DNA from: Acidobacteriaceae bacterium
Lineage (GTDB): Bacteria; Acidobacteriota; Terriglobia; Terriglobales; Acidobacteriaceae
DNA: 64,000 nt
Assembly (NCBI GenBank): GCA_003131315.1
Contig: PKUV01000038.1
Span: 90,439-154,438 of the forward strand
Direction of reading: 5' to 3'
Positions within the stretch are counted from its first letter, which is position 1. Every line of letters begins with the position of its first letter. The position numbers and the translations under genes are program-made. Under the pieces are notes generated by a model. It made no database searches. It was given only the letters and a program-made list of their open reading frames with translations, and had not been told where the DNA came from. This document shows, one piece after another, positions 19,228-57,483 of this stretch.

Positions 19228-19392
19228 TCCTGCTCCTCTCCCGGAAACGATGTTATGAGTCCGGTTCCATGCCTTGCCTATCCAAGAGAGGCGGACTGAG
19301 CGGCTGCGGTCCGCGCTGCTTCGCGCGGAAACTCGCGCTGCGACCGTCCCCCTATTTATTACATTTTCTTCACGCCAGCGTGATGGGGCGTA

Positions 19393-19421: not shown

Positions 19422-19514
19422 GGTCATTTATCAGAGTCCATTTAGGGTGAGAATTTGTGGTAAGGTTGCCGGCCAGTTTGTGATTCTTGCGACAGCGCGC
19501 GCACGAACGCAGCC

Positions 19515-40931: not shown

Positions 40932-40989
40932 ACTCAACTTGAGTGGAAATTCGACCACGCGACAGGGGGATGAGGGCAGCCGGAACAAT

Positions 40990-42258
40990 TCACCGTGCGC
41001 GCACGGCGACGAGTTCGGTTTCGACCGGCACACCGCGAGCGATCTTCACTCGGACCAGCGCTTCGAAAGGCTTTATCGGTCCCGCACTAGAGCCCGGAAT
41101 CTCATGCAGCAATTTTTCCACAGAATCCTGGCGGCAAACAAACTCCACCGCGCCTTGCGTCCCGAACGTGGTCGTTCCCGCCAGAATCATCACGAACCGA
41201 GCGGAACCCATTCCCGGCACCAGTCCGACGACCGAATAATCTTCCGTCAGCGGGGCATTGGAAGGACTGGCGAGGTAGGTGCTGGCCTCGCCCGGCTTCG
41301 GATGTTTGCTGACGATCGCAAGGTCGCCTTGACGCGGACCCGACGCCACCCTTTGAAAAACGAATTCCTGCGTGCCGGGAATGTCGAGCAACGAAAGATT
41401 TTCTGAAGGAGAGCCGACAAAGATCAGGTTGTTATTCTTCACGTCGTCGAGCGAGAACAAGCTCCCGCGCTTCACCCGGATCCTCCGTCCCAGCGTTCCG
41501 AACACCTCATCGAGCGCGTGGATGGCCAATACCTCTCCCACTCCGGTGTAGTGGTCGTACACGGCGACCTTCGAATCCTGACGCGAATTGTAGTAACGCA
41601 TGCCCGTCTCCGGCCGTCCGACGAAGGCAGCATTGCTGAAGATCACCCAAGGCTCCTCGACTCCGGAGGTAAAGGGTCGCCAAAACGCAGCGAGAGGTCC
41701 GGCGGCCCGAGGTGCGCTGGGCGCCGCCATCGCGGGTTCGGGCAGTTTCCGGTTCCACAGCAGGCTCCCCAGAACGATCAGCGAGGTGATGAGTCCGACC
41801 AAGAGCAAAACGACGGCAATCCGCCAGCGTGCCGGGACGGTTTCGACCGCAACGCTGCGCGGCGCCTCGCGCGGAGGCACGGCCTGAAGCTGCGGCTGCG
41901 GATCGATCAGTCTCGCCTCGGAGGTAAGGTGATAGCTTCCTTTCGGAATCTTGACCAGGATGGGATCCGCCACTCCCTCCCCGGCGTAGTACTCCGCCAG
42001 CTTCAGGCGAAGACGTCCGGCTTGCACCCGGATGGTGGAGTCAGATTGCGGATCAAAGTCGGTGGACCGCCCATACACTTCGGTGGCAATCTGATACTCC
42101 TTCAACGGCGCGTCGGGATGATCGAGGGATTGTTTTGCGAGGTATTGCAGCAGCTTGCAAAGGGACTCGGAGCCCCGCAGGCTATGACTTTTAATAATGT
42201 TATCTATTTCTTGGAAGAACTGTTCGGGCGAGGGGGCGAAAGTGCGTGTCACGGCCAT
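40990..42258 (-). CDS. winged-helix transcriptional regulator with membrane anchor and periplasmic sensor domain
   Basis: This 422-residue protein has an N-terminal winged-helix-like DNA-binding domain (about 1-115), a single transmembrane segment around residues 146-168 (a run of Val/Leu/Ile), and an about 250-residue extracytoplasmic domain with Trp-Val-Ile-Phe-Ser-Asn-Ala. This CadC-like layout is common in Acidobacteriota next to Oar-like receptors. It is divergent from the receptor at 42445, with 186 bases between, and probably controls it. A paralogue stands at 50099, likewise beside a receptor. Confidence 0.75.
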   Translation of the reverse strand: MAVTRTFAPSPEQFFQEIDNIIKSHSLRGSESLCKLLQYLAKQSLDHPDAPLKEYQIATEVYGRSTDFDPQSDSTIRVQAGRLRLKLAEYYAGEGVADPILVKIPKGSYHLTSEARLIDPQPQLQAVPPREAPRSVAVETVPARWRIAVVLLLVGLITSLIVLGSLLWNRKLPEPAMAAPSAPRAAGPLAAFWRPFTSGVEEPWVIFSNAAFVGRPETGMRYYNSRQDSKVAVYDHYTGVGEVLAIHALDEVFGTLGRRIRVKRGSLFSLDDVKNNNLIFVGSPSENLSLLDIPGTQEFVFQRVASGPRQGDLAIVSKHPKPGEASTYLASPSNAPLTEDYSVVGLVPGMGSARFVMILAGTTTFGTQGAVEFVCRQDSVEKLLHEIPGSSAGPIKPFEALVRVKIARGVPVETELVAVRAR

Positions 42259-42444
42259 TTAACATTGACGTAACAGGGGATCGTATCCTGGTACAACAAT
42301 GGCATTTTACTCCTGTAACCGTTTAAAGACCTAGTGAAACCTCCACCGGGGACAGCTTTGTACCAAAACTTGCAGATCTTAACCGGGCATGCGTAGGGTT
42401 CTCTAAACCAACGTCTCTCGATGTCCCCGAAATTGGAGAAAATA

Positions 42445-45400
42445 ATGAAGAGTAAATTCTTTCTGGTTCTCATTCTTGTGCTCTGCCTGACCGGTTTGGC
42501 GTTGGCTCAGACGGACACAGCCCGTCTTATGGGAACGATCACAGATTCTACTGGCGCCGTCATGCCGAACGCGACCGTTACGGTGACCGCCGCCGGAACC
42601 GGACGGGCGATAACCGCGAAAACGGGCGCTTCGGGCGAGTACACCGTCAATGCTTTGCCGATCGGAAAGTACTATGTTGAGGTGAAGCAGGAAGGCTTTA
42701 AGACGGCGCGCGCCGACTTTTCCCTCGAAATTTCCCAAGTCCTCGAGATCAGCTTGAAGCTGGAAACTGGCGCCGCCTCCATAACCGTGGACGTGACCGG
42801 CGAAGTGCCGCTGGTGGATACGTCTACTTCGAGCGCCGGCGAGGTGATCCAAGGACGGCAAATAGTGGATCTCCCGCTCAACGGACGCAACTTCACCTCG
42901 CTGGCCCTGTTGACCCCGGGCGTCAGCCGCGGCCAATATTCGAACAACGCAAGCGCGCCGAACAACAATGCCGAAACTTGGCGCAACGCCGAATCCGGCG
43001 GCGGCGCACTGGCCGTCAATGGCCTGCGGCCTCAGTCCAACAACTTCATGCTCGACGGCCTCGACAACAATGATTCCATGGTCAACACGCTCATAATCTT
43101 CCCGGCGATTGAAGACATCGCGGAATTCAAGACTACGACCAGCACTCCTCCGGCCGAGTTTGGCCGCTCCGGCGGCGCGGTGGTGCAGGTTGCCACCAAG
43201 TCAGGAACCAACGAGTATCACGGTGCCGTGTATTGGTTTAACCGTTCCAGGGAGGGCGCCGCGAATACCTTCGGCAACCCCCTCACTCCCGAGCTAAGCC
43301 GCAATCAGTTTGGCGCCACGCTGGGTGGAGCGATCTGGAAGAACAAGCTGTTCGCCTTCGTCGACTACCAGGGTTGGCGTCAGAACGTGCCGGCGGGTGT
43401 TACCTACAACCATGTGCCGACCGCCAAGATGCGGACCGGCGACTTCACCGAGCTGCTTGCACCGGGCACAGGGACCGCGACCAGCGTGCCCTACTACGGC
43501 GACGGCACACCCGCGCACCCGGGGCTGCCAGGTTGCTATGCTGCCTATTTGGCCAATCCCACGGCCTTCACTCCTGGCATGGGATACATCTACAATCCTC
43601 AGACCTGCCTGCCGTTCGGTTGGGGAACCTCGCAGCTCAACATCATTCCGGGTGGCACGGGTGGCCTCCAGAACCCCGTCGGCATGGCGTATCTGAACGC
43701 GTTTCCAAATCCCAACATCAGCGGCGCGAACCCGGCAACGAACGACAACAACTTCCGCGGCCCGCAACAGAACATCACGAAAATGAACGACTACGATGCG
43801 CGACTGGATTTTGTCGCCACGTCCAAAGACACTATTTTTGCCCGCTATAGCCTCGATCAGGATTTCCTGGACAATACGCCTTGGCTGGTTGGTGCCAATA
43901 ACGCCCAACACTTCCTGCCCTCCGGCAACGGCAACAACCCGCAGCATCCGCGTCAACTCGCCGTGGGCTACACCCGGCTCATCAGCAACACCCTGATCAA
44001 CGAATTCCACTATGGTTACTCGCGTCCGTATTACGGGTACCAGCAACCGGGCTTTGGCATTCCGATGGCTGCCAATCTTGGGATTCCCAACGCCAATACC
44101 TCCCCCTTGCTGGGTGGCATGGCCCTCATCGGCGGCTGGTACGGGAACCTGGCCTACGTTGGCGACTACGGCCCATATCTCGTCGTCGAGCCGACACACC
44201 AGTTCACCGATGCCGTGAGCTGGACCAGAGGAAAACATGTCTTCAAGTTTGGCGGCAGCATTATCCATCGCGACGTGAATTGGACCCAGGCCAATCAGGC
44301 CAAAGGCTACTTCTGGATCGACGACGGCAACTATGGCGGGATGCCCGCTCCAACCTCGGCCCATGGAACTTTTACCGGATATGAGCCCGCCGAGTTGGCT
44401 GGCGGCTTCGTAGGCGCCTACGGAGTCGGCGCATTCAACGGGTACTACAACACGCGGAGCTGGGAGAACGGCTTCTTTGCGCAAGACGACTTCCGCGTCA
44501 ACCGCAGGCTGACGTTGAACCTCGGCCTGCGTTACGACCTGTTCACCTGGCCGAAAGAAGCCAACAACCATATGTCCAACTTCGATCCCACGACAGGGAC
44601 GCTGGTTGAGGCCGGTACAACCGCCGGATGGAACGCCTCTTTGATCAACACGCCGAAGAAGAATTTCGGCCCGCGCATCGGATTTGCCTACGACCTGTTT
44701 GGGACTGGCAAAACCGTGCTCCGCGGCGGATATGGCCTGTTCTACTACCTGGACCGCGGCGGCGTTGCCAATGAGCTTTCGGAGAACCCGGACTTCAACG
44801 GCACCCAGACCTACTACGCGTGCCCGACGTTGACGACCTGCGGGACTGGCTATCGCTTTACACTTAGCGGAGCGGCGCCCAACGGAAGCACCGATCCGAC
44901 CGTAGCCACAGGAGCCCTACCGGCTAAAATCGGCATCGACCCGAAGGCCCTGACTTCCAGCGCTAATGTAATTTACTGGCCGAAGAACAGCCCGAGCTCG
45001 CACATCCATCAATGGAACGTGCAGATCGAGCAGGCGTTGGGCAGCAAGACATCGTTGAACCTGGGATACGTTGGGACGAAGATGGGAAATCTTGCAACGC
45101 CCTTCAACGCGAATGCGGGGGCTCTCGGCACGGGCACACACTGGTTCTCGAACGTGGGTAACATCGGCGAGTATGCGATGATCGGCAGCGGAAACTACAA
45201 CGGTCTGCAGACGAAGCTGACTCACCGGATGAGCAACGGACTGATGGTCACTGCGGCCTACACCTGGTCGCACACGCTGGATAACTCCGCCGACGCGCTC
45301 AGCAGCGCAACGAACGGCATCCTGGTGGGCAGCGGCGGGGTGCCACTGCTGCAATACCAACGCGGCAACTCGAACAGCGATCAGCGTCATCTGTTTGCCG

Positions 45401-45909
45401 CCAGTGCCATCTACGAGCTGCCCTTCGGACGTGGAAAAAGCTTCGGCCACGATATCTCGAAGGTGGCTGATTACGTGATTGGCGGCTGGCAGTGGAACAA
45501 CGTGATTGTGCTGGCCAGCGGCACGCCGATGGACATCCAAGGTGCGCCGGGCAGCCCGAATGGCCGCCCAGATTACCACGGTGGATGCAGGACCGGCGTT
45601 TCGTGGCAAGTCTGGATCAGCTGTCCGGCGGGTGCATTCACTGCTCCTGCTGGGCTGGTCGGCAATCTGCCCCGTAACGCCTTTCCTGGACCTGGAACAC
45701 GCACCTGGGACACCTCGCTCTCGAAGAGCTTCACCGTCACCGAACGGGTGAAGGCGGAGCTCCGTGCCCAGGTATACAACCTGACCAACACGCCCCAGTT
45801 CCAGATTCCGGACACCAACTACAACAACGGCGACTTCGGCAAGCTGACCTCGCCTCGGCTCTCGCCCACCAATCGAGAGCTCGAACTCGCGCTGCGGGTA
45901 ATCTTTTAA
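42445..45909 (+). CDS. Oar-like TonB-dependent receptor of the maltodextrin locus
   Basis: This 1154-residue receptor has a signal peptide ending Ala-Leu-Ala-Gln (about residue 22), a carboxypeptidase-regulatory-like domain (about 28-105, with Gly-Thr-Ile-Thr-Asp-Ser-Thr-Gly-Ala), a plug domain and a barrel ending in Val-Ile-Phe. I chose the ATG at 42445 because GGAG lies 7 bases before it and the signal peptide starts there. It should import maltooligosaccharides for the amylase downstream. A terminator-like hairpin follows. Confidence 0.9.
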   Translation: MKSKFFLVLILVLCLTGLALAQTDTARLMGTITDSTGAVMPNATVTVTAAGTGRAITAKTGASGEYTVNALPIGKYYVEVKQEGFKTARADFSLEISQVLEISLKLETGAASITVDVTGEVPLVDTSTSSAGEVIQGRQIVDLPLNGRNFTSLALLTPGVSRGQYSNNASAPNNNAETWRNAESGGGALAVNGLRPQSNNFMLDGLDNNDSMVNTLIIFPAIEDIAEFKTTTSTPPAEFGRSGGAVVQVATKSGTNEYHGAVYWFNRSREGAANTFGNPLTPELSRNQFGATLGGAIWKNKLFAFVDYQGWRQNVPAGVTYNHVPTAKMRTGDFTELLAPGTGTATSVPYYGDGTPAHPGLPGCYAAYLANPTAFTPGMGYIYNPQTCLPFGWGTSQLNIIPGGTGGLQNPVGMAYLNAFPNPNISGANPATNDNNFRGPQQNITKMNDYDARLDFVATSKDTIFARYSLDQDFLDNTPWLVGANNAQHFLPSGNGNNPQHPRQLAVGYTRLISNTLINEFHYGYSRPYYGYQQPGFGIPMAANLGIPNANTSPLLGGMALIGGWYGNLAYVGDYGPYLVVEPTHQFTDAVSWTRGKHVFKFGGSIIHRDVNWTQANQAKGYFWIDDGNYGGMPAPTSAHGTFTGYEPAELAGGFVGAYGVGAFNGYYNTRSWENGFFAQDDFRVNRRLTLNLGLRYDLFTWPKEANNHMSNFDPTTGTLVEAGTTAGWNASLINTPKKNFGPRIGFAYDLFGTGKTVLRGGYGLFYYLDRGGVANELSENPDFNGTQTYYACPTLTTCGTGYRFTLSGAAPNGSTDPTVATGALPAKIGIDPKALTSSANVIYWPKNSPSSHIHQWNVQIEQALGSKTSLNLGYVGTKMGNLATPFNANAGALGTGTHWFSNVGNIGEYAMIGSGNYNGLQTKLTHRMSNGLMVTAAYTWSHTLDNSADALSSATNGILVGSGGVPLLQYQRGNSNSDQRHLFAASAIYELPFGRGKSFGHDISKVADYVIGGWQWNNVIVLASGTPMDIQGAPGSPNGRPDYHGGCRTGVSWQVWISCPAGAFTAPAGLVGNLPRNAFPGPGTRTWDTSLSKSFTVTERVKAELRAQVYNLTNTPQFQIPDTNYNNGDFGKLTSPRLSPTNRELELALRVIF

Positions 45910-45965
45910 TCTAGCGCGCAGGGACGGCGCTTGAGTGCGGTTCTCAAGCGTCTCCCGATTCGTTT

Positions 45966-46003
45966 GAGCCGAGAAGCAGGATACGCTCCCGGCTCTCTTT
46001 TCT
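45966..46003 (+). terminator. candidate Rho-independent terminator after the receptor
   Basis: GAGCCG (45966-45971) pairs with CGGCTC (45990-45995), extended by two more pairs with one mismatch, and is followed by TCTTTTCTT. It lies between the receptor stop and the GH13 start. Confidence 0.45.
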
Positions 46004-46064
46004 TGATTTGTTTGCTCCGCGTTGCTCGGTTGGTCTGTCTCAAGCCGGGCTGCCGGTAACTGCC

Positions 46065-47921
46065 ATGAAAAACAAACGCACCATTGCGCTATTGCTGATC
46101 GTGGTCTGCCTGCTCGCGCTGCCGGCATGGCCGCAGTCGGATGCCAGGGCGGGGCAAGTTCCCGTAGTTCGCAAGATCGATCCGCCAAACTGGTGGGTGA
46201 ACTACACGCCGGAGCTCACGCTGCTGCTCACCGGCGAAAATCTTTCCGGTGCGCGCGTGGTGAGCGCTTCGAAAGGCGTGGGAGTCGTTGGGACGGACGC
46301 TTCGTCGAACGGGCACTATCTCTTCTTGCGGTTGAAGGTTTCGTCCTCGCGCCCCGCGACGGCGCAGCTTAAGTTGAACACAGCTTCTGGTTCGACCTCC
46401 GTGCAGTTGCCGCTGTTGGCTCGTGCGGACTCCCGCGGCCGCTTCGAAGGTTTCTCTCGCGACGACGTCATTTACCTGATCATGCCCGATCGCTTCGCCG
46501 ACGCCGATCCGTCGAACGACCGGCCCGCGGGCTCGACCGGAGTGTACGACCGCGGCAAGCCTATGGCATATCACGGCGGCGATTTGCGCGGCATTCGAGA
46601 GCATCTTGCATATCTGCACGACCTCGGCGTCACCACGCTGTGGCTCACTCCTGTGTGGAAGAACACCGACACCGACTACCACGGCTATCACGTCGTCGAC
46701 TTCTACGCCCTCGACGATCACATGGGATCGATGCAGGAATACCAGGCACTGGTTGCCGACGCCCACAAGCTTGGCATGAAGGTGTTGATCGACTACGTCG
46801 TCAATCACACCGGTCCCCATCATCCCTGGGCCAACGACCCACCGACGGCTACGTGGCTGCACGGCACACCAGCGCACCATCTGGAGCCCGCCTATACGTT
46901 CTCAGGGCTGGTCGATCCGCACGCTTCGCCGCGCGAGTATCTCGCCACGCTCGAAGGCTGGTTTGCGAGCAAGTTGCCCGATCTGAATCCGGACGATCCC
47001 GCGCTCGCCCTCTACCTGGCGCAGAATGCGATGTGGTGGACGGAGACCGCGCAACTGGATGGATTCCGCCTGGATACGTTTCCGTATTCCTCGCGACAGT
47101 TCTGGAGCGGATGGCATGAGCGACTGCGCCATGTCTATCCGCGGATCAACGGTATCGGTGAAGTGGCGGACGGCGATTCGACCATCACGTCATTCTTTGA
47201 AGGCGGACGAAAGCAGTTCGATGGCATCGACTCCGGCCTCGCCACGGTCTTCGACTTCCCCCTCTGTTATGCCTTGCGCGACGTGGTCATCAAGGGCGCG
47301 CCGATGCAGAAGATCGTCGATGTTCTTCGGCACGACGAACTCTACACGCATCCGGAGATGCTGGTCACTTTCATCGGCAATCACGACGACCGGCGCTTCG
47401 TGAGTGAAGAAGGCAGCAACCCGGCCAAACTAAAAGCCGCATTGTCGCTTCTGCTGACGTTGCGCGGGATTCCGCAAATTTATTCCGGTGACGAAATTGG
47501 GATGCCGGGCGGCGACGACCCCGACAACCGGCGCGACTTTCCGGGAGGTTTTCCGGGCGATCCGCGCAACGCCTTCACCGCCAGCGGCCGCACCGCCGAA
47601 CAACAGGATGTATTCGCGTACGTGCAGTCGTTACTGGCGCTGCGCAAGGGCCACGCTGCCCTGCGTACCGGAAAGCAGTGGCACATCGGATGGGACGACA
47701 CTTATTATGCTTTCCTGCGCGAGTTGCCGGAAGAAAAGCTGCTGGTCGTGTACAACAACGCCCCGAAGACGCTCGAACTCAATATCCCCGTCGAAAACAC
47801 GCCGCTTGAAACTGCGCACCAGTTGCAGACGATGTTCGGGAATACGTCCGCGGAACTTGTAACCGGCAAAGTGCACGTCTCACTACCGGCCCAGACAATC
47901 GCCGTGTTCAGCGTGCGTTAG
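46065..47921 (+). CDS. GH13 cyclomaltodextrinase-like alpha-glucan hydrolase
   Basis: This 618-residue secreted enzyme has a signal peptide (about residues 1-22), an N-terminal immunoglobulin-like cyclomaltodextrinase domain with Pro-Pro-Asn-Trp-Trp, and the GH13 barrel. Conserved regions are seen: Asp-Tyr-Val-Val-Asn-His, Gly-Phe-Arg-Leu-Asp-Thr (nucleophile Asp), Gly-Glu-Val (acid/base Glu) and Phe-Ile-Gly-Asn-His-Asp. It should cut maltodextrins or cyclodextrins. The start ATG at 46065 begins the signal peptide, and the 19 in-frame codons before it are not convincing. It acts with the receptor at 42445 and the sugar transporter at 39579. Confidence 0.9.
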   Translation: MKNKRTIALLLIVVCLLALPAWPQSDARAGQVPVVRKIDPPNWWVNYTPELTLLLTGENLSGARVVSASKGVGVVGTDASSNGHYLFLRLKVSSSRPATAQLKLNTASGSTSVQLPLLARADSRGRFEGFSRDDVIYLIMPDRFADADPSNDRPAGSTGVYDRGKPMAYHGGDLRGIREHLAYLHDLGVTTLWLTPVWKNTDTDYHGYHVVDFYALDDHMGSMQEYQALVADAHKLGMKVLIDYVVNHTGPHHPWANDPPTATWLHGTPAHHLEPAYTFSGLVDPHASPREYLATLEGWFASKLPDLNPDDPALALYLAQNAMWWTETAQLDGFRLDTFPYSSRQFWSGWHERLRHVYPRINGIGEVADGDSTITSFFEGGRKQFDGIDSGLATVFDFPLCYALRDVVIKGAPMQKIVDVLRHDELYTHPEMLVTFIGNHDDRRFVSEEGSNPAKLKAALSLLLTLRGIPQIYSGDEIGMPGGDDPDNRRDFPGGFPGDPRNAFTASGRTAEQQDVFAYVQSLLALRKGHAALRTGKQWHIGWDDTYYAFLRELPEEKLLVVYNNAPKTLELNIPVENTPLETAHQLQTMFGNTSAELVTGKVHVSLPAQTIAVFSVR

Positions 47922-48599
47922 TGGAATGAAAAACTGAACTGTTCCCGACTCCGTCCTTTCAGATGTGGAATGATTCGTGACCGCGACAGATCACAATTTA
48001 TCGGGCGAGATTCGCCAGACCACTCCGGCTTTCAGATTTGTCAGCCAAATCGAGCCCGGACCCGCACGAACGCTGTCTCCGCTTCGCCACAGGCTGCTAG
48101 AGTTGCTGAATTACGGCGATTTCCCGCGATTTTCAGAGCAAAGCAGCCGGATTTCTCTGCAGCCCAGACTAACTGACGAAGGGAGAAGGATTCGAACTCT
48201 CAATACAGTTTCCAGCTGTGCCTCTACGAGTCCATGTGTCACTGACTTAGCGGAATTTCGTCCTAGAAACGAGCGCACCAGAGAAACGTACTAGGCCCGG
48301 CCACAGGATCAAGTAGTCCGGTTTGTGTGGCCGGTCTACGGGCGAAGGCTTGGCGATCATCGGGCACGAAGGCGCGGTGGTCGAGCCGGTTCGACTCTCA
48401 AAGTGGTTTGCAGACTGACTGCTTGCTCACTGGCGAGTCCGAAGTGTAGAGAAAATCTCACGTAACGTGCGGCCGGAAACACGGAGTTTGAGGAGTCTTG
48501 AGCCAACTTCGAGAGATCAGTCGCCACACTTCAGCGAGTTGAGCGTACTTCGAGCAAATGGATTGTTTCCGAGCCGAGATTCGGGCGCAGTCAGACCAG
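47922..48599. other. gene-free interval with decayed sequence
   Basis: No intact gene is visible. The first part (to about 48160) has short open frames without recognisable content. A tRNA-like piece follows at 48177. The stretch up to about 48599 may contain the most decayed N-terminal part of the DUF932 gene found downstream. Confidence 0.35.
48177..48250 (-). other. tRNA 3'-half-like sequence (possible tRNA-Ser relic)
   Basis: On the minus strand an anticodon-arm-like hairpin (ACAG, loop CTGGAAA with GGA in anticodon position, CTGT) is followed by GAGAGTTCGAATCC, a T-arm with the standard TTCGAAT loop, then TTCTCCCTTCG and TCA. No matching 5' acceptor strand is found, so a whole tRNA is not present. 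It may be an attachment-site copy or a decayed gene. Confidence 0.3.
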
Positions 48600-49268
48600 G
48601 CGGCGCAAGTGCACGAGATACCGACCTGTGGGGAGTGCCGCCTTCTCTTGTCGAAGGATCGCACTTCCAAATGACCTACGCTCGCCATTCGAGTCTCGAT
48701 AATTGAAATGCTTCGATCGGTCTTAGCGTCCGGAACGCAGATCGAAGCTCGTGGGAAAGATTCATGCGCGGCCGCCGCTTGAGAGTTCCGAAACCCCCAC
48801 AGTCTGGACGTGACTGTGAGAAGCGAAAGACGAGGTTCTGGACGATTGGTCGCTATCCATTGTTGTCGCATTGTCCCAGGTGTGTTCACTCCCGTGCTCG
48901 CGAAACACTCAACGTCTTTCTCGCTCATCGACTGTATCTCCGTTGGGGTCGACCGGATGCAGCGAAACTTCGAGCCGATGCGAAAGCAAGTGGAAGCCTG
49001 GCAGAGAAGTGAATTGACGGACCTCACCGCCAAAGTGGTCATCTACGAAGCGTTTATCGAGGGAAGACTCGAAGCTCCCAAACACCTCGCCCGTAGCGTG
49101 CATGACCTCTACTTCGAGCCAAAGTACGAAGAATTTCGGCCTCGTACGATCTGGAGTCTCTCGAATGCGTTTACATCTGCATTCAAGGAACCGGATCCCA
49201 TCCCACAGTTCAAGGCCACGGCGAAGCTGGGCGAATTCCTGGAAGCCCGGTTCTCACAATCGTTCTAG
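48600..49268 (+). pseudogene. DUF932 (phage/plasmid-type) protein, frameshifted and 5'-decayed
   Basis: From about 48868 to the TAG at 49266 one frame gives a clean 130-residue C-terminus with Ser-Val-Gly-Val-Asp-Arg-Met-Gln-Arg-Asn-Phe, Glu-Gly-Arg-Leu-Glu-Ala-Pro-Lys-His-Leu and Pro-Arg-Thr-Ile-Trp-Ser-Leu-Ser-Asn-Ala-Phe, typical of DUF932/TIGR03299 proteins found on plasmids and phages. An earlier family segment (Ser-Ile-Gly-Leu-Ser-Val-Arg-Asn-Ala) is readable near 48714 in another frame, so the gene is frameshifted and its first half decayed. It marks a mobile-element relic. Confidence 0.6.
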
Positions 49269-50037
49269 TCCTCGGTGCTGTGTCGGCCGGCCGGCCCTTC
49301 CCAACAAGTAATCCCACTTTGCTTAGACGACCCATGCGGGCGAGGCTCGCCCGCATGGGCTGAAGAGTCACCGTCATGTCTGCATTGTTCCCGCTTGGGC
49401 AAATTGCGGCCACGCCTGGGCGCTTCTGGAACCCCAGGCACAACGCTACCATCTATCTCCAACCGCGCGCTGGGGGTGCTGGACGATCACGCCGCTTCCT
49501 TCTGCTCCTGGCGCCCTCTTTAGCGTTTTCGCGGACGAAACTTATTGCCGCGAACACAAGGAATGCTACGAACGCAAGCCACAACACAAGTAGAACAACC
49601 TCAAAGACTCGCTCTCCTTGATCGAAGAACCGGTCCCACGGAAATGAAAATACTGCCGTGGTAAGGAAGCGAGGTTGATCTGCAGACACTCCATTTGTGT
49701 AAACCGGAGTGCCGGAACCGAGAACCCTATCTTTTAGACTTGGGCAACCATCTTTCGGGTGTTCAAGGCTATCTTTCGGCCAATTCCTGAAGGGGCGCGG
49801 ACGCTGCGATGAACCCGCGTGCGTTATCAGCTCTGGCTATCCGGCACTGCTCCGCAAAAAGAAAAATAGAATCAGCGTTGCTCTGCGTAAATCTGTGGCG
49901 AGAGAAAGTCTACGCCGAAGCCCCAAAGCCGCACCGAGAATGAGGCTTTCGCTTTTCATGTCAATCCTCCACGAGCTTAGACTCCTTAGAGTCTCTAACA
50001 AAACCCCCAGTTTCGAACTACGCTGGCGCCGGCTGAA
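49269..50037. other. gene-poor interval after the DUF932 relic
   Basis: The segment holds a perfect palindrome (49331-49359, listed separately). A minus-strand frame at 49453-49689 could encode a 78-residue protein with one hydrophobic helix and an Arg-rich tail, but its ribosome-binding site is poor and I do not count it as a gene. Nothing else is supported. Confidence 0.4.
49331..49359. repeat. 29-bp perfect palindrome
   Basis: Two 14-base arms (CCCATGCGGGCGAG and its exact complement) flank a single central base. There is no T-run on either side, so it is not a standard terminator. It could be a REP-like repeat or an element end. Confidence 0.7.
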
Positions 50038-50100
50038 TGGAGAGAAGGTGAGGATTTGAACCTCCGGCCCCCTGGTCCGTCAATTCCAGCCGCTGCGATT
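50038..50100 (-). other. tRNA 3'-end-like sequence with encoded CCA
   Basis: On the minus strand GGAGGTTCAAATCCTC forms a T-arm, followed by CCTTCTC, a discriminator T and CCA at 50040-50038. No 5' strand GAGAAGG is found where it should be. It overlaps the end of the regulator gene at 50099. It may be an attachment-site duplicate of a tRNA 3' end. Confidence 0.3.
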
Positions 50101-51295
50101 ACCACATGTGAGTAGCGACGACGGTGGGGACAGAGGGGGAACCCGAAATCACTTCGACATGCAGAACGATCTGAACATTCTTCTGCTGCCATCCTGCGGG
50201 TAATCTGCGGAGCGCCTCCTGCAGAAGGGTTGGATTCGTGACAAGGTCGGCAGCAGCCTCTGTGCCATAGTGCGAGATGCCTGTGATCTCAACAATGATG
50301 TTATTCGTGCCGGGATAAAGCACGCGCGACACAATTGCATAGTCCTCACTTAGTTCGGGATCGTCGGGGTGGGTCTTGATGGTCCAATTCGTGGGAGTAC
50401 CATCCTGCAACACTCCGAAAGGGCGGCGGGACAAATCGATCGAATAGCGAAAGTGCTCTCCGATTTCATGCCATTGGGTATAGGAGAACCCCACCAGAAC
50501 CGCCGGTGCCGTGCGCAGATCCCGGAACGAGACGTCATTTCCGATGCGCAGTTTGTAGGGCTGTCCCATCCGGCTCAGCATGTCGGCGATTTGCGATGCG
50601 GCATTTACGTCACTCACCGCGACAAACCGGTTTGGGATCAGGGCAAAATCTTCAACCCGGGCGGGCCGGTCGCCGCCCGAACTTCCGACGGGCGAGTACA
50701 CGGGCACCGGTGCCGTGCACACAAACACCGCCTTGTGGCTCTGAAAGACCGGCGACCAGAATTGATCGAGGGCCGACGCCGGCCGCTGGCGTAGCCAGAA
50801 AAATCCTGATATCACAAGGCCCAGAAGGACCACAGCACCGCCGATTAGAAAGAGCGGTGACCGGACCCGGCGCTTCGCCGCGGCGGGCTGTTCTTCGCGC
50901 TTGAGGTGGCGGAACTCTGGAACATAGGTACCTGGAGGCAAATCGATCAAAACCTGGGCATCTGCAGGCCCGCTGAGGTAGTAGGAACGTAGTCGCTTTC
51001 TGACCTCGCCAGCCTTGACCCGAACCCCGGCATCTTCGCTGGGATCGTACGACGCCGGCTTGCCAAATACCTCAATCCCGATCGTGCGCTCTTTAAGAGT
51101 ATCGGGATGGCCGTTCAGGGTGTTCTCGACCACATAGCGCAGGAAACTCTGGCAGAGCTTGCTGGACTGAAAATCGTGGCTGGCAAGCACCCGATCTAAT
51201 TCTTCACGAACGAGGGCGTCGGTTATCCCCGATTCGGCATGACTCGCCCCTGGACCGGGAGTCCCAAGCGAGTATGAGACATGTGCCACAGTCAA
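50099..51295 (-). CDS. winged-helix regulator with membrane anchor, paralogue of 40990
   Basis: This 398-residue protein has the same three-part layout as the gene at 40990: a winged-helix-like domain (about 25-130, with Ser-Phe-Leu-Arg-Tyr-Val-Val and a Gly-Thr-Tyr-Val-Pro end), one transmembrane helix near 146-165 and a C-terminal sensor domain. Part of the sensor (Asp-Asp-Pro-Glu-Leu-Ser-Glu-Asp-Tyr-Ala-Ile-Val) mirrors the paralogue. It probably controls the receptor at 53050 and the enzymes behind it, although a TPR gene lies between. The signal sensed is unknown. Confidence 0.72.
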   Translation of the reverse strand: MTVAHVSYSLGTPGPGASHAESGITDALVREELDRVLASHDFQSSKLCQSFLRYVVENTLNGHPDTLKERTIGIEVFGKPASYDPSEDAGVRVKAGEVRKRLRSYYLSGPADAQVLIDLPPGTYVPEFRHLKREEQPAAAKRRVRSPLFLIGGAVVLLGLVISGFFWLRQRPASALDQFWSPVFQSHKAVFVCTAPVPVYSPVGSSGGDRPARVEDFALIPNRFVAVSDVNAASQIADMLSRMGQPYKLRIGNDVSFRDLRTAPAVLVGFSYTQWHEIGEHFRYSIDLSRRPFGVLQDGTPTNWTIKTHPDDPELSEDYAIVSRVLYPGTNNIIVEITGISHYGTEAAADLVTNPTLLQEALRRLPAGWQQKNVQIVLHVEVISGSPSVPTVVATHMW

Positions 51296-51459
51296 CTCCG
51301 GTACCGAATGTTAGCATACCCCCCGGGCGGGAAGGGACGCCGACTTGAGGCGCAAACCGTTCCTGGCGACAGGGTTGGACTGGCGCGCCGAACAGGTTCG
51401 AAACAGGCACATAACCTCCGGGTGACGGGCAAATCCGTCCCCCCGATTTCCGACGGACG

Positions 51460-52668
51460 CTATTGCGGGATGTCGGGGTTGAGCGCCTGTGAATTTCCGG
51501 ACTCTTTATATATGTGCACATAGGCCGAACGCAGGCGTTCCTTGGCCTCGCGCAATTGTTTGAAGGTTGCGACCTCGCTGGCGGCCTCGGAAATGCGGCC
51601 CAGTTGCCGATACGCCTGCGAAAGACGATAGTGTGCTTGCGCATCGAGCGCATCGACAGCAACGGCATGGCGCAGGTGTTCCAGTGCCTGATCGAGCTGA
51701 CCGGCGGACATCAGCACCTTGCCCAGGCCGACCTGCGCTTCCGGATCGTCGGGCGCCAGTTCCGCGGCGCGCCGGTAATGGCTGAGGGCAGCATCCATAT
51801 CGCCGTGCAAACTGAAGAGCGCGCCCAGTCGGCTTTCCGCCTTGGCATCGCCAGGATTGACGGTCAGTGCGGTCTCGAACTCTTTTTGCGCATCCTGTTG
51901 CGACTGCTCCGACATGGAATCTTCCAGAATGGCTTCCCCCAACTCAAAATGCGCCCCAGGGAGACGTGGGTCGATCCGAACCGCTTCGCGATATTGCGCT
52001 ATGGCGCCCTTGGCATCTCCCTCGGTGACCAGGTGCTGGGCAAGGAGTTCGTGCATCCGGGCGGAATTGGGGGCGATCAGGGCCAGGCTGTCGCGGGCCT
52101 GTGTCGCCAGGTCCGTGTGGACCCGGTAGACAACATAGAGAACGTCCACGTTCGTCGGGTCCAACTTCTGAAGCACGGCCAGAACCGCCGAAGTCTTCTC
52201 CAGATCCCCCTGCTGATAATCGAGTTCGGCCAGAGCCATGCCGGCGCGAATCTGCAATTTCTTATCCTGCAGATGCGGAAACGATTTTTCCAGGAGGGTT
52301 TTCGCGGAGTCGAATCTCCCCTGGGCCTTTTCGCATAAGCCGAGGATCGCCTGCGCTTTCCAGAGGGAAGGCTGGAGCCGCAGCGCCTGTCGAAGATTTT
52401 GACTGGCTGCGGCAAAGTTCCCCTGTAAAAACTCGACGACACCCAGATTCCCCCGCGCCTCGACGTTTTTGGGATCGAGCGCGAGAACGGCATTCAACTC
52501 GCGAATCGCTGCCTCAAACTGCTTATCGGCCACAGCCTGCTGAGCGCGGGCGAGGTGTGCTTGCATCTCGCGTTTCGGATCGGAGGCCCCCGCCTGAGCG
52601 GAAAGACAGACAAGAGTGCAAGAGAAGAACATCAGGAAAAAGACGGCCACACGTAAAATTGTTGACAT
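51460..52668 (-). CDS. secreted/periplasmic tetratricopeptide-repeat protein
   Basis: This 402-residue protein has a signal peptide (about residues 1-25, ending Leu-Ser-Ala-Gln-Ala) and about nine TPR units, seen as repeated Leu-Gly-x2-Glu/Leu and Ala-x3-Tyr/Leu-Asp-Pro patterns such as Ala-Val-Leu-Ala-Leu-Asp-Pro-Lys-Asn. TPR solenoids bind partner proteins. The ATG at 52668 has GGGAGC 6 bases before it. Reading further upstream adds only unrelated residues. It stands between a regulator and a TonB receptor, so a scaffold role in that locus is plausible but not shown. Confidence 0.8.
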   Translation of the reverse strand: MSTILRVAVFFLMFFSCTLVCLSAQAGASDPKREMQAHLARAQQAVADKQFEAAIRELNAVLALDPKNVEARGNLGVVEFLQGNFAAASQNLRQALRLQPSLWKAQAILGLCEKAQGRFDSAKTLLEKSFPHLQDKKLQIRAGMALAELDYQQGDLEKTSAVLAVLQKLDPTNVDVLYVVYRVHTDLATQARDSLALIAPNSARMHELLAQHLVTEGDAKGAIAQYREAVRIDPRLPGAHFELGEAILEDSMSEQSQQDAQKEFETALTVNPGDAKAESRLGALFSLHGDMDAALSHYRRAAELAPDDPEAQVGLGKVLMSAGQLDQALEHLRHAVAVDALDAQAHYRLSQAYRQLGRISEAASEVATFKQLREAKERLRSAYVHIYKESGNSQALNPDIPQ

Positions 52669-53049
52669 GCGCGCTCCCAAGTCAGCGGTAGAGTAGCACG
52701 AGTATTTCCGAGGCACTGTCTGCGCCTCATGGAAATTGCGGGCTGCCCGCCGGCATCTGTGAAAATGCGTAGGTTGCGTTGGCATGGGACCAACTTTCTC
52801 CGCAATTCGGTAGTCAGCCGTCGCAGCCATCCAAAAAATTGCCTGCGATCTTGTTTCAAACCTGCCACTGAACTGTTTCGAACTTGACGCCACCGGCAGG
52901 GACGGCAGAGAAAGGTAGGCTCAGCGTGTGTTCATTCCTACAGCGCGGACGGGATGTGCGCCCGAATCGAGGCACGTTTGATTGTTGAAATGTTTTACAT
53001 AATGAGGCTGTCCAAGCCCTACTGATTTGCGCATAAGGAGATACTGGTG
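52669..53049. promoter_or_regulatory. divergent intergenic region (TPR gene / receptor)
   Basis: This 381-base region separates two divergently transcribed genes and must carry promoters for both. The only clear signal is an AAGGAG ribosome-binding site at 53035-53040 for the receptor. I see no convincing hexamer pair. Confidence 0.4.
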
Positions 53050-56000
53050 ATGTCGCCCTTCGGTTCAAAGTTGCGTTTTGCTTTCGTCCTCGCCTTATTA
53101 ATCTCTTCGTTCTTCAACCGGGCGGTGGCCCAGGGTCGGCAAAGCGGAGAAATCCGTGGAACGGTGATGGACCAAACCCAGGCGTTGATCACGGGAGTCA
53201 AAGTCACCATCACGAACGTCACGACGGGCGTGAGCCACGTGGCCACCACCGACGCGTCGGGTGTGTACGACGTGCCCTTCGTACAGCCAGGTGAGTATAG
53301 CGTCACCTTTGCCAAGGACGCCTTCAAAACCCTGACCCGCTCCGGCATTACTCTGAGTGTGGAGACGATCACCGTTAATGGCGCGCTGGAAGTCGGCGCC
53401 GCCTCGGAAAGAGTAACCGTCTCGGGCGATGCGCCGCTGGTGCAGACCGAGTCCGCCGAAAAGAACACCACCCTTACTGCAGCCTTCGTCAGTTCTGCTC
53501 CCAGCATTAATCGCAGTTGGCAGGACTTGCTTGCAGCCCTGCCCGGAGTGAACCCCGGCAGCGGGGAAAACTCCAGTGGCTCCGGCGTCGGGGTGAACGG
53601 GCAGGAACGGTTCTTTTCCAGTTGGCAGATTGACGGTGGCACCGCGATGTTCGGGCAGTCCTCGAATCCGAACTACGTGTCGAACCCGACAGAGACGATT
53701 CAGGAAGTCAGCCTCAGTACGGCAAATTTTGGCGCCGAGCACGGCAACGGCCTGTCAGTTTTCAACGTGATCACCAAGAGCGGCACCAACAAATTTCACG
53801 GCGCCGTTTACGAGTACATCGAGAACGATGTGCTGAACGCTCAGAACAAGTTCGCCCAACCGCCTCCGTTCAACAAACCGGCAGTTCGATGGAACGAATA
53901 CGGCTTCAACCTCGGCGGGCCCATCAAGAAAAACAAGGCCTTCTTTTTCTTTAGCTATGAGAGGAATCCCAACCACAGCTTTGGCCCGGACCTACGCTCC
54001 TACCCGACGACCGGGCTCCAGCCGAACGGAGGGCAGGGGTATCGCGAGGGCGACTTCTCCGCGTTGTTGGGGGCGCCTGCGGTTGACGGTGGCGGCAGTC
54101 CCATTATCAACCCCTGTAACAACCAGCAGGTTCGCCAAGGACAAATCTACGATCCGCTCACGACGCAAACCGTGACTTGGAACGGTCAACCGGTGGTTTG
54201 CCGGATGCCTTTTGCCGGGAACATCATTGACCCAAGCCGCTTCGACCCGGCGGCGGTTGCCATCCAGCAGAACTTTCCCATTCCGAACGTTCCAGGAGCG
54301 GGGAACGTGAACAACTACTACAGCACCCAGTCGAACTGGAACGTGATGAAGCAACTGATGTCGTGGTACAACGCCAAGGTCGACTACGACTTCACGCCCA
54401 AGAACCGGCTGACTGCGTCGCTTGCGTGGTCGAATTATGACCAGAGTTTCACACGGCCCGATTGCAGCATTGACTGCGCTCACTGGAAAGGCAACCAGCC
54501 GCAGGGACAGATTACGAATGTCTGGACGATCAGCCCGAACGTGGTGAATGAATTTCGTTTTTCCCTCAGCCGCGCCTACGGAATCGCTACAAACGCGAGC
54601 AGTGGCGGAGGATGGCCATCCAAACTAGGGCTAAGCAATCCGGCTGGAGATCTTTTTCCGAACATCTGGATCAACGGAAACCTGAACACCGACATCGGGA
54701 ACCCCGACGCTCCGCCCGCGATTGACGTCGAGACGAGCTTTGTCGAGTCGGACGCCGTTACCTGGGTGCGCGGAAAGCACATCTTGAAGTTCGGCGGCGA
54801 GTTCGACCGCTGGTGGGTGAACACCGGATGGGGAACCGCGACCGAAGGCGGCTTCTGGTGGGGCGGCGTATTTACGCAGAATCCCGTTGACCAGGGTCTG
54901 CCGTCGGGCAGCGTGCCCACCGAAGGGGAAGGTTACGCCGATTTTCTTCTCGGCTTGCCGAACTCATGGTGGATCTCGATCAATCCTGAGACCGGCGGAC
55001 GGATGTGGAGCACCCAGGCTTTCGTTCAGGACGAATACAAGGTCAAACCGAATCTCACGTTAACGCTGGGATTGCGCTACGTGGCGCAGAGTGGATGGAG
55101 CGAAGTACAGAATCGCGTCTCGGGCTTCCAGCCTTCGATCAAGAATCCGGCCGACGGCTCGATGGGCGCGATGTGGTACGGCGGCCAATACGGACACACG
55201 GCCATGACCAACACGATCCCGCACTTCTTTGCCCCACGAGTGGGAGTGGCGTGGTCTCCGAAGAATGACTGGTCCGTTCGCGGAGGATTTGGTATCTACA
55301 ATATCTTTGCCGGACAGAACACGATCGCTCCGGCCATAGCTTGGGGCCAAGGCTGGGTCCCGGTAGGGAATATGTGGTGTCCGGACTCGCCGCTCTTCCA
55401 ACTGGGCAACCGCACTTCAAACTGGCAAGATCCCAATGGTGGAAGCTCGAACTGTTATTCCAATCAGTTTGGGATCGGACCGCCGTCACCCATTTATCCC
55501 ACCAACCAGAACCGGACTGCGGATCTGTTCAACGGTCTCAACGTGAACTACACGCCGTTTAACATACCCATGGAATACTATGCCGAGTACCAGTTTGACA
55601 TTCAGCATCAGTTCGCGCACGGAGTCGTGCTGGACCTCGGCTACGTGGGGAACCGGGGATTCAATATTCAACTGGGCAGGGACATCAACCAGATTCGGCT
55701 GACGGGTCCGGGCGCCGGCACCCGGCCTAACCCGAACTTCAACCAGATTGATGCCTCCCTGTTCGATGGCCGCGGCAACTACAACGCTCTGCAAATCATT
55801 GCCAAGAAGCAGTTCGCCCATGGATTGTCGTTTGCCGTGAACTATGCCTGGGCCAAGGTGCTGGATACGCAGACCGGCGGCGGGTGGGGTGGCTCGGGAT
55901 CTTCCGAACGTCACTCGGGGAATTATCAGAACGCATACAACATGAATGCGAACTACGGTCCGGCGTCGAACGACATCCGCCACACCTTTAACGGCAGCGT

Positions 56001-56607
56001 GACATACAACCTTCCGTTCGGTAATGGAAAGCAGTTCCTGAACCAAGGTGGAGTGCTGGACGGGATTGTCGGCGGCTGGGAACTCTCTTCGATCTTCCAT
56101 GTGCGCAGTGGTGTGCCGACGACTGTGATCGTGGGCTACGACGGAGCTGGAGTGGGATCGGGGCAATGGCGCCCCAATCAGATCGCAGATCCTAACCAGG
56201 CGGGCCCGGTGGCGGCAAATTCGAATATTCAATGTCAATATCTTGCCGGGCAGCCGATCCCAAATACGGACCTCGTCGGAATTGCTCCTGCGCGCGTGCA
56301 CACGATGAGCAGTTGGTTCAACCCTTGCGCTTTTACTACCCCCCAAGGCGGCACCTTCGGCAACGTGGGTAGGGATACCATTTACGGACCAAACTGGCGA
56401 ACGGTTGACTTGGCGTTGCTCAAGAACTTCCGTTTGGGCCTGCTCGGTGAAGGCGGGGGATTGCAGTTTAAGCTCTCGGCCACAGATGTGTTCAACCACC
56501 CGAACCTGGGTTTGACGGATTCAACCTATACCGACGGTGGCTTCGGCCAAATCAGTTACGCCAACACCAGTCGGCAACTACAGGTTGGAATGAAGATCAC
56601 CTTCTAG
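53050..56607 (+). CDS. Oar-like TonB-dependent receptor of the N-acetylhexosamine locus
   Basis: This 1185-residue receptor has a signal peptide ending Ala-Val-Ala-Gln (about residue 27), a carboxypeptidase-regulatory-like domain (about 33-110, with Gly-Thr-Val-Met-Asp-Gln-Thr-Gln), a plug with Ala-Leu-Pro-Gly-Val-Asn-Pro, and a barrel ending Lys-Ile-Thr-Phe. AGGAG precedes the ATG at 53050 by 9 bases. A GTG directly before it is an alternative. It probably imports amino-sugar-containing glycans for the downstream esterase and GH84 enzyme. Confidence 0.9.
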   Translation: MSPFGSKLRFAFVLALLISSFFNRAVAQGRQSGEIRGTVMDQTQALITGVKVTITNVTTGVSHVATTDASGVYDVPFVQPGEYSVTFAKDAFKTLTRSGITLSVETITVNGALEVGAASERVTVSGDAPLVQTESAEKNTTLTAAFVSSAPSINRSWQDLLAALPGVNPGSGENSSGSGVGVNGQERFFSSWQIDGGTAMFGQSSNPNYVSNPTETIQEVSLSTANFGAEHGNGLSVFNVITKSGTNKFHGAVYEYIENDVLNAQNKFAQPPPFNKPAVRWNEYGFNLGGPIKKNKAFFFFSYERNPNHSFGPDLRSYPTTGLQPNGGQGYREGDFSALLGAPAVDGGGSPIINPCNNQQVRQGQIYDPLTTQTVTWNGQPVVCRMPFAGNIIDPSRFDPAAVAIQQNFPIPNVPGAGNVNNYYSTQSNWNVMKQLMSWYNAKVDYDFTPKNRLTASLAWSNYDQSFTRPDCSIDCAHWKGNQPQGQITNVWTISPNVVNEFRFSLSRAYGIATNASSGGGWPSKLGLSNPAGDLFPNIWINGNLNTDIGNPDAPPAIDVETSFVESDAVTWVRGKHILKFGGEFDRWWVNTGWGTATEGGFWWGGVFTQNPVDQGLPSGSVPTEGEGYADFLLGLPNSWWISINPETGGRMWSTQAFVQDEYKVKPNLTLTLGLRYVAQSGWSEVQNRVSGFQPSIKNPADGSMGAMWYGGQYGHTAMTNTIPHFFAPRVGVAWSPKNDWSVRGGFGIYNIFAGQNTIAPAIAWGQGWVPVGNMWCPDSPLFQLGNRTSNWQDPNGGSSNCYSNQFGIGPPSPIYPTNQNRTADLFNGLNVNYTPFNIPMEYYAEYQFDIQHQFAHGVVLDLGYVGNRGFNIQLGRDINQIRLTGPGAGTRPNPNFNQIDASLFDGRGNYNALQIIAKKQFAHGLSFAVNYAWAKVLDTQTGGGWGGSGSSERHSGNYQNAYNMNANYGPASNDIRHTFNGSVTYNLPFGNGKQFLNQGGVLDGIVGGWELSSIFHVRSGVPTTVIVGYDGAGVGSGQWRPNQIADPNQAGPVAANSNIQCQYLAGQPIPNTDLVGIAPARVHTMSSWFNPCAFTTPQGGTFGNVGRDTIYGPNWRTVDLALLKNFRLGLLGEGGGLQFKLSATDVFNHPNLGLTDSTYTDGGFGQISYANTSRQLQVGMKITF

Positions 56608-56733
56608 CCAGATGACTCCCCCAGGAGCAATCGGCGGGGCACCGCTCATCACGGCGTCCCAGACCGGCCTGAAGCAAGTCTTCCATTGGAACTTGATCCA
56701 AGAGCGTTCGAAGCCGAGGTCTCGCGTTCCTTT

Positions 56734-57471
56734 ATGAAACCAATCTTTGTTCTTCTAGCCAGCTTGATTCTGTCGGCCAATGTGGCGGCGCAGCAGCCGT
56801 CGGATCCTTGCGCGTCTCTCAAGGAAGACCAGCACGCAATGGAGTTGAGATTGCGCGACTGGCCCGACTTGGCCAAGTATCGGGAAGACGATGCCAGGCT
56901 GGGTACGCCCGCGAAGGGAGAGTCGAGAGTCGTGTTCCTGGGCGATTCCATCACGGAATTCTGGGCCCTGTCCGACTCCTTCCACGGCAAGCCCTATGTG
57001 AACCGTGGTATCAGTGGGCAAACCACGCCGCAGATCCTTCTACGCTTTCGCCAGGACGTGATAGCGCTGAAGCCAAGGGTAGTGGTAATCCTCGCCGGCA
57101 CCAACGATATCGCGGAAAACACCGGCCCCATCACGCTGGCGGCGATCGAAGACAACCTGACGTCCATGGTGGACCTGGCGAAGCGAAACGGAATCCGCGT
57201 GGTTCTTTCTTCACTCGTACCGGCTTTCCAATATCCGTGGAGGCCGGACCTGGCGCCGGTGGAAAAGATTCGCGCTTTAAATGACTGGATAAAAGACTAC
57301 GCCGCGAAGGAGAGGTTGGTTTTTCTCGACTACCACTCGGCCATGGCGAATGACAAGCGCGGTCTGAAGGCGGAACTGTCCGAGGACGGAGTCCACCCGA
57401 ACAAAGCTGGCTATGCCTTGATGGCGCCTCTGGCGGAGAAGGCAATCGCCGCGGCGTTAGCCAAGAACTGA
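56734..57471 (+). CDS. secreted SGNH/GDSL-family esterase
   Basis: This 245-residue hydrolase has a signal peptide (about residues 1-19, ending Val-Ala-Ala-Gln) and all SGNH blocks: Gly-Asp-Ser-Ile-Thr (Ser nucleophile), Gly-Ile-Ser-Gly-Gln-Thr (Gly), Gly-Thr-Asn-Asp (Asn) and Asp-Gly-Val-His-Pro-Asn (Asp-x2-His). Such enzymes often deacetylate glycans. The ATG at 56734 begins the signal peptide, and upstream in-frame codons lack one. It lies 12 bases before the GH84 gene, so the pair likely removes acetyl or other esters and then cuts the glycan. Confidence 0.88.
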   Translation: MKPIFVLLASLILSANVAAQQPSDPCASLKEDQHAMELRLRDWPDLAKYREDDARLGTPAKGESRVVFLGDSITEFWALSDSFHGKPYVNRGISGQTTPQILLRFRQDVIALKPRVVVILAGTNDIAENTGPITLAAIEDNLTSMVDLAKRNGIRVVLSSLVPAFQYPWRPDLAPVEKIRALNDWIKDYAAKERLVFLDYHSAMANDKRGLKAELSEDGVHPNKAGYALMAPLAEKAIAAALAKN

Positions 57472-57483
57472 GAGTCGTCCCCT

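Follow-up and report, generated by a model that had tools for sequence, protein, structure and literature searches.

Acidobacteriota are among the most abundant bacteria in soil, and little is known about how they find and take up glycans. In Bacteroidetes, a polysaccharide utilization locus (PUL) supplies one outer-membrane transporter and secreted hydrolases for each glycan, and many paralogous loci occur per genome. Two other described systems are close to the loci reported here. The carbohydrate utilization loci containing TonB-dependent receptors (CUT loci) of Xanthomonas and aquatic Proteobacteria bring together a TonB-dependent receptor, a degradative enzyme, an inner-membrane transporter and a regulator, and the sucrose locus is described as controlled by a repressor responding to the sugar inside the cell (PMC1790865). 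ToxR-like regulators are defined by a DNA-binding domain, a single membrane helix and a periplasmic sensor in one protein (PMC5430869). Among them, ChiR of Salmonella controls a chitinase operon, and is said presumably to lack a periplasmic sensor (PMC10109510). Here, we analyse a stretch of 64,000 nucleotides (the window) from an Acidobacteriaceae bacterium, taken from contig PKUV01000038.1 (C17) of a near-complete 6.0 Mb genome in 194 contigs. It carries two loci, each with a putative transmembrane regulator (P0001 in locus 1, P0004 in locus 2) next to a giant outer-membrane receptor.

The original prediction saw a repeated design in these loci, and this was borne out: two paralogous one-helix regulators each adjoin a receptor of 1.1-1.2 thousand amino acids and a glycoside hydrolase (GH), which is GH13 in locus 1 and GH84 in locus 2. 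We consider it likely that both loci work as self-contained units of glycan uptake, each under the control of a transmembrane regulator of the one-component type.

Association of regulators with divergent receptors

Three samples of loci were compiled, from named genomes, from the phylum (the first 80 by E-value of 138 matches outside the own genome) and from the genus with relatives. Genes were called by a simple longest open reading frame rule, and regulators and receptors were recognised by profiles. Loci without a full regulator in the gene calls were left out (9 of 80 named, 7 of 80 phylum and 2 of 20 genus loci, and one of 20 control loci). Seven of the 20 genus loci, on contigs equal in length to those of named loci, were taken to be the same records; pooled counts were deduplicated. 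The next upstream gene is a divergent receptor for 33 of 71 regulators in the named genomes, 41 of 73 in the phylum sample and 11 of 18 in the genus and its relatives, at median intergenic distances of 222, 239 and 294 bp, and a further 10, 10 and 5 regulators, respectively, have a divergent receptor within 5 kb. Pooling gives 155 distinct regulators, with a divergent receptor next door in 84 and within 5 kb in 104. For the 103 non-redundant regulators with at least 1.5 kb upstream, the numbers are 58 and 70. By comparison, only one of 19 control regulators with the same N-domain but another C-terminus, taken from the relatives search and not from the phylum sample, has a divergent receptor next door (Fisher test against 58/103, 2e-5), and so do 24 of 1413 other genes in the same loci (1e-56).

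Two finished genomes, chosen as single contigs with many members, were used for a rotation test. With 61 receptor candidates scored in each, so that the counts are floors, 10 of 13 and 7 of 19 regulators (the latter in G281) have a listed divergent receptor less than 6 kb away, while rotation means are 0.49 and 0.55, and the observed counts were reached in 11 and 3 of 20,000 trials. In addition, the distance matrices of regulators and receptors are correlated (r 0.41; 49 pairs from 18 genomes), a value reached by none of 5000 within-genome shuffles. Whole-locus vertical inheritance contributes to this signal, and co-inheritance is meant here in that sense. Random association, which would have refuted the original prediction, is rejected by the gene controls, by rotation in the two finished genomes and by the within-genome shuffles.

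Seen from the receptors, the association is weak. Such a regulator faces 10 of 61 and 7 of 61 listed receptors in the two finished genomes, and the source genome has two regulators for about 64 receptor genes or fragments (75 PF25183 pieces merged; 65 of 85 candidates scored). For comparison, we took the 20 best-scoring receptors of the source genome outside the window, and found no family member near them in the stretches fetched. Behind those receptors lie genes of mixed kinds, among them permeases, peptidases and dehydrogenases; just one of 24 encodes a glycoside hydrolase (GH9). A third receptor of the same OMP_b-brl_4 family lies within the window itself (15850-19227, minus strand; region 12691-20417), and is divergent from a PaaX-type regulator; behind it are an aldehyde dehydrogenase and a quinohemoprotein amine dehydrogenase subunit, that is, another regulator and another nutrient. 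Because most receptors listed here and in the two finished relatives lack this regulator, the suggestion of a general alternative to the Bacteroidetes loci does not hold. The claim should be restricted to a single mode of regulation that is common in some Terriglobia and serves some of their receptors.

Behind receptors that have the regulator, the phylum sample contains GH1, GH2, GH3, GH13, GH28, GH31, GH43, GH106, GH115 and alginate lyase, and sulfatases and esterases are also found. Counted from the family tallies as one protein per catalytic family member, a GH or lyase occurs in 13 of 44 receptor-downstream proteins of this sample, against 1 of 24 without the regulator (Fisher 0.011). The named sample adds GH3, GH9 and GH31, with at least three GH or lyase proteins in 26 scanned, and both samples together give 16 of 70 against 1 of 24 (Fisher 0.032). 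In the named sample, the Pfam scan covered 26 of 46 receptor-downstream proteins; it excluded TPR proteins, proteins of the P0004 orthologous loci and a single very long frame, and its tally listed 25 of 30 families. GHs and lyases thus lie more often behind receptors with the regulator than behind those without it, so that the regulator tends to point to those receptors, within a larger repertoire, that deal with glycans. For example, two 'hypothetical protein' entries on pACIX901 of the cultured Granulicella tundricola MP5ACTX9 contain C-domain matches; the first (ACIX9_RS19955) faces a TonB-dependent receptor and a GH1 beta-glucosidase, and the second (ACIX9_RS20075) a receptor-like protein and an endo-xylanase.

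Proteins of 840-854 amino acids also occur directly behind receptors (L192 12531-15050, L203 12827-15349, L194 458-3016 and L207 12503-15064). No Pfam family matches the L192 protein at E 1e-12, and two further proteins from this set share 61% identity with it. They are possibly an undescribed secreted enzyme.

Architecture and distribution of the regulator family

An alignment of P0001 with P0004 spans the greater part of both proteins (23% identity, E 2e-24). A single main hydrophobic segment is present in each of them, with a 19-residue hydropathy maximum of 2.79 from residue 149 in P0001 and 2.55 from residue 148 in P0004. Among 157 distinct family members, 127 have exactly one such segment, 22 have two, one has three and seven have none. 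The charge bias at the membrane helix is weak, the N-side being more positive in 65 of 100 members, and the C-terminal domain is probably periplasmic. Neither regulator reaches a Pfam cut-off: Trans_reg_C scores 16.0 bits for P0001 (cut-off 26.2; E 0.013), and P0004 has no match to it. All 68 aligned members are likewise unmatched by Trans_reg_C at E 0.01, at which only two families appear, at chance level and in one member each. A search of the source genome with PF00486 gave no match on contig C17, and sequence searches of the PDB with P0001 and with the 68-member profile returned only chance matches.

The AlphaFold models have confidence values (pLDDT) of 88 for P0004 and 84 for the P0001 C-domain. 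In the P0004 model, a helix at 147-169 separates two folded domains. The N-domain is predicted as a helical bundle with a two-strand wing (hairpin), and among its fold matches the DNA-binding domain of SaeR ranks best (Z 7.3, 87 residues). The model lacks an N-terminal four-stranded sheet, the element described for OmpR-type domains as in CadC (PMC5430869). For the two C-domains (residues 184-422 of P0001 and 172-398 of P0004), the common fold neighbours are BcsB, GH67, GH115 and GH84, and, at lower scores, GH20-type enzymes and an archaeal S-layer cell-wall anchor. The P0001 C-domain aligns with BcsB 478-722 at Z 12.7 over 166 residues, and with GH67 over 125 residues at Z 11.3, the latter value being 10.9 for P0004. 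Foldseek E-values are weak for both, with bests of 1.3e-2 and 2.2e-3 and all above 0.001. With E up to 10 allowed, five of six sensor domains have no Pfam match and the sixth has one at chance level (E 0.098). The CadC and ToxR sensor structures are not in the fold lists, which excludes nothing. This predicted likeness makes carbohydrate sensing plausible, without proving it.

A search with the C-domain profile found the family in at least 33 of 297 phylum genomes, a floor, as up to 10 candidates per genome were scored. They comprise 23 of the 31 listed genomes of the own family, counting the source genome, together with two from the same class and eight from other families. In the source genome, the searches found two full-length members, both in the window, and two proteins with the N-domain alone. 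In one of the latter (L033 1450-3570, contig C77), the N-domain heads a protein with a C-terminus of repeats that we take to be TolB-like; the other (L034 1147-1989, contig C95) is apparently a shortened copy, in which the N-domain runs directly into the late part of an L033-type C-terminus. Other genomes are richer, with 19 members in G281 and 13 in G265. The largest expansion seen is that of Granulicella sp. S156 (L131), with 50 match pieces to P0004, several per protein.

A single scan of the named genome collection, keyed on the P0004 branch, yielded 160 confirmed stretches, of which 80 loci were kept. Of these 80 loci with the full-length architecture, 79 are in records with Acidobacteriota-type titles. 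The remaining one lies on a contig titled Nevskia soli (isolate BOG_genome_mining.15; L121), and its family member is 42-43% identical to P0004; this title could be erroneous. Regulator 2 has its nearest named records among metagenome assemblies of Terriglobia and Acidobacteriaceae. In a plasmid collection, P0004 matches 269 of 72,556 records, one of which covers 80% or more of P0004. Among the 20 plasmid matches listed, two Granulicella records cover 93% and 75% of P0004; the other 18, mostly Rhizobiales, are confined to residues 1-147, and some of them are annotated as adenylate cyclase. As the N-domain alone occurs in plasmid records outside the phylum, it is a widespread module, and its union with this C-domain appears, within the reach of these searches, to be restricted to Acidobacteriota. 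The idea of a phylum-specific system would apply to the architecture and not to the N-domain, and the architecture is not phylum-wide, most of the genomes found belonging to one family.

Gene content and intergenic DNA of the two loci

The features of both loci are listed in Table 1. The original account is corrected in three respects: the MFS gene has to be added to locus 1, because it is kept beside relatives of P0001 (L253, L255-L258); the GH84 gene falls outside the interval originally drawn for the design; and a secreted TPR gene separates regulator 2 from receptor 2.

Table 1. Features of the two loci in the window.
Feature	Position	Strand	Remarks
MFS sugar-symporter-like transporter	39579..40931	+	MFS_1 match; end-to-end with regulator 1
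Regulator 1 (P0001), 422 aa	40990..42258	-	Winged-helix-like N-domain, one membrane helix, C-terminal sensor domain
Candidate operator TTTAACATTGACGTAACA	42258..42275	+	Putative; two TAAC half-sites 11 bp apart; abuts regulator 1 start codon
Second block conserved between the divergent genes, GTAACCGTTTAAA..TAGTGAAACCT	42315..42342	+	Putative
Receptor 1, OMP_b-brl_4	42421..45909	+	Likely start ATG 42445, read from sequence
Secreted GH13 with cyclomaltodextrinase N-domain	46008..47921	+	Pfam; likely start near 46065 from translation
Regulator 2 (P0004), 398 aa	50099..51295	-	Paralogue of regulator 1
Secreted TPR protein	51460..52893	-	Separates regulator 2 from receptor 2; start likely near 52668 from translation
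Locus 2 candidate operator GAACTGTTTCGAACTTGACG	52870..52889	+	Putative
Receptor 2, OMP_b-brl_4	53047..56607	+	Weak TonB plug match; likely start ATG 53050, read from sequence
Secreted SGNH/GDSL esterase	56686..57471	+	Pfam
Secreted GH84 beta-N-acetylglucosaminidase	57484..60012	+	Pfam; weak Glyco_hydro_20b-like N-domain, below cut-off

Both receptors have a PF25183 barrel (E 8e-202 for receptor 1 and 6e-196 for receptor 2) with an N-terminal CarboxypepD_reg domain. The name 'Oar-like' for them goes back to the original prediction. Both would be TonB-dependent, and a Plug domain (PF07715) is matched in receptor 2 only (24.8 bits, cut-off 23.9). For the MFS protein, the nearest NCBIfam model is that of a GPH sucrose/proton symporter, below its cut-off. 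Judged only by the neighbouring enzymes, locus 1 may be specific for maltodextrin and locus 2 for N-acetylglucosamine (GlcNAc). The TPR gene of locus 2 is kept in the P0004 orthologous loci L093, L094, L096 and L099. TPR proteins also recur at other regulator-receptor pairs, lying between both, behind the receptor or behind the regulator (L175, L209, L214, L261-L263).

The candidate operator of locus 1 is retained in close relatives of regulator 1, and that of locus 2 in those regions orthologous to the P0004 locus that extend far enough (L264/L093, L266/L096, L099). No single operator common to both loci was found, the GTAAC repeat lying near regulator 1 and many relatives and a GAAC block at locus 2. 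Across the family, GTAAC occurs at 3.13 per kb in 75 regulator-receptor intergenic regions, compared with 0.89 per kb in 173 other divergent regions; the density is 2.53 per kb in the 65 regulator-receptor regions that remain without the genus set, and 2.24 per kb upstream of the 61 regulators that lack a neighbouring receptor. Pairs of GTAAC at a spacing of 11 bp, with no more than two mismatches, are found in 33 of the 75 regions compared with 28 of the 173, in 24 of 65 without the genus set, and in 26 of 61 and 20 of 77 regions of regulators alone and receptors alone, respectively. A scan of 42200-42500 for sigma-70 promoters and terminators gave nothing.

Proposed mechanism and alternatives

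The likely mode of action would be as follows. The C-terminal domain in the periplasm would read an oligosaccharide admitted by the matching receptor, and the signal would cross the single helix and alter the binding of the cytoplasmic domain to tandem GTAAC-type half-sites in the shared promoter region. The receptor and the enzymes, perhaps also the regulator itself, would be turned up when their glycan is present; that this happens by activation rather than repression is our guess. Through their sensor domains, the members of the family would each respond to a glycan of their own, which would be a maltodextrin for locus 1 (GH13 and the MFS symporter) and a GlcNAc-containing glycan for locus 2 (GH84 and the esterase).

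Several observations weigh against such glycan uptake units. The ligand, the DNA binding and the expression are all at the level of prediction, and the orientation of the helix is read from hydropathy and the weak charge bias. For almost half of the family, the immediate divergent neighbour is not a receptor; in the two large samples, 31 of the 144 regulators called (19 of 71 named, 12 of 73 phylum) have no receptor at all in their stretch, some stretches ending early, and in G281 no listed receptor lies within 6 kb of 9 of the 19 regulators (61 receptors scored). Furthermore, two of the three regulators with only the N-domain in the two finished genomes face a receptor, which brings the pooled control to 3 of 22; therefore, the pairing is much stronger with this C-domain, and may not be exclusive to it. 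Behind the paired receptors, a GH or lyase domain is present in just 16 of the 70 proteins, and TPR, kinase, GGDEF/EAL and ASPIC proteins are found there too. The density of GTAAC is likewise raised ahead of the 77 receptors that have no neighbouring regulator (1.57 per kb), and the 11-bp spacing is only modestly above those of 9, 10 and 22 bp, which are raised as well. The single exact TAAC repeat of the window is expected 0.37 times per window by chance, and regulator 2 has the different GAAC block in place of a GTAAC repeat. Finally, a profile comparison between the sensor domain and the N-domain of GH84 is negative (hhalign probability 0.1); consequently, the shared fold is no proof of common function.

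What the regulator senses could also be the envelope or the receptor itself, through the CarboxypepD_reg domain or the transport state, rather than a free sugar. This would be surface signalling without a sigma factor. Pairwise co-inheritance and juxtaposition whatever the enzyme fit a protein partner equally well, but the sensor fold is mainly common to carbohydrate-handling proteins and some members have no receptor nearby; neither point is decisive, and we regard this alternative as unlikely. A more conservative explanation takes the proteins as plain ToxR/CadC-like regulators of the family already described, which merely happen to lie at CUT-like loci and are novel in their sensor alone. 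The plan of a DNA-binding domain, one helix and an outer domain is the same, and the weak Trans_reg_C match of P0001 and the SaeR likeness of the N-domain agree with it. However, that match is sub-threshold in P0001, absent in P0004 and found in none of the 68 members, and the N-domain model is helical with a hairpin wing in place of the sheet-bearing OmpR form, which makes this explanation quite improbable. As for ordinary proximity, two families as numerous as these could meet in the same nutrient islands without functional coupling, and receptors are indeed abundant in the source genome. Since the rotation and gene controls, the divergent layout with its short median distances and the within-genome co-inheritance already contradict it, we give this explanation hardly any weight.

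A glycan uptake unit under its own transmembrane regulator is therefore the interpretation that we retain. A broader proposal, which we put forward tentatively and hold to be somewhat less probable than not, is that of a family of glycan sensors spanning the membrane, expanded to as many as dozens of copies in a genome, in which a sensor with a GH-accessory fold is combined with a DNA-binding domain outside the OmpR family and each copy is dedicated to and co-inherited with one receptor. Such a family would be the Acidobacteriota one-protein replacement for SusD together with sigma/anti-sigma or hybrid two-component logic. In practice, the regulator family is a sequence handle: the neighbours of its members hint at which receptor may serve which glycan, and locus prediction becomes possible in genomes without SusD. 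The two annotated members looked at carry the label 'hypothetical protein'.

Relation to described systems

The loci resemble the SusC/SusD-type PULs of Bacteroidetes in having an outer-membrane transporter and secreted hydrolases per locus, and differ from them in having no SusD_RagB in the genome, no FecR on the contig and a one-component regulator. That SusD is missing, as first proposed, agrees with the finding of no SusD_RagB (PF07980) match in the whole genome, with a positive Bacteroides control and other SusD families not searched. The proposed lack of a sigma/anti-sigma pair is upheld as well: none of the four FecR proteins of the genome is on contig C17, and neither an extracytoplasmic function (ECF) sigma/anti-sigma pair nor a hybrid two-component regulator is among the nine locus proteins scanned, ECF sigma factors and hybrid two-component systems not having been searched genome-wide.

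Like the ToxR-like regulators CadC, ToxR and TfoS, the present proteins combine a DNA-binding domain, a single membrane helix and a probable periplasmic sensor. They differ from these regulators in a DNA-binding domain that is below the Trans_reg_C cut-off or without a match to it, and whose model has no N-terminal sheet, in the predicted fold family of the sensor and in their frequent partner, a divergent outer-membrane receptor. The predicted sensor fold is like that of BcsB and of the accessory domains of GH67, GH115 and GH84 (Z about 10-12.7; GH20-type lower). The sensor domain has no detectable sequence relation to the GH84 N-domain or to a Pfam family, and is here joined to a membrane helix and a DNA-binding domain.

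With CUT loci, locus 1 (39579-47921) shares a receptor, a carbohydrate enzyme, a transporter and a regulator, and locus 2 (50099-60012) is a partial counterpart, with no transporter among the proteins scanned. CUT-locus regulators of the repressor type that responds to internal sugar are cytoplasmic, whereas the regulator here is transmembrane, belongs to one expanded family and is divergent from an OMP_b-brl_4 receptor. No title or abstract start describing the regulator-receptor pairing was found in the literature; with subscription papers outside the scope, such a description may nevertheless exist. One-component control of the ToxR/CadC-like kind, at CUT-like loci that have no SusD_RagB match, would be a new arrangement, and its regulators are an unnamed family.

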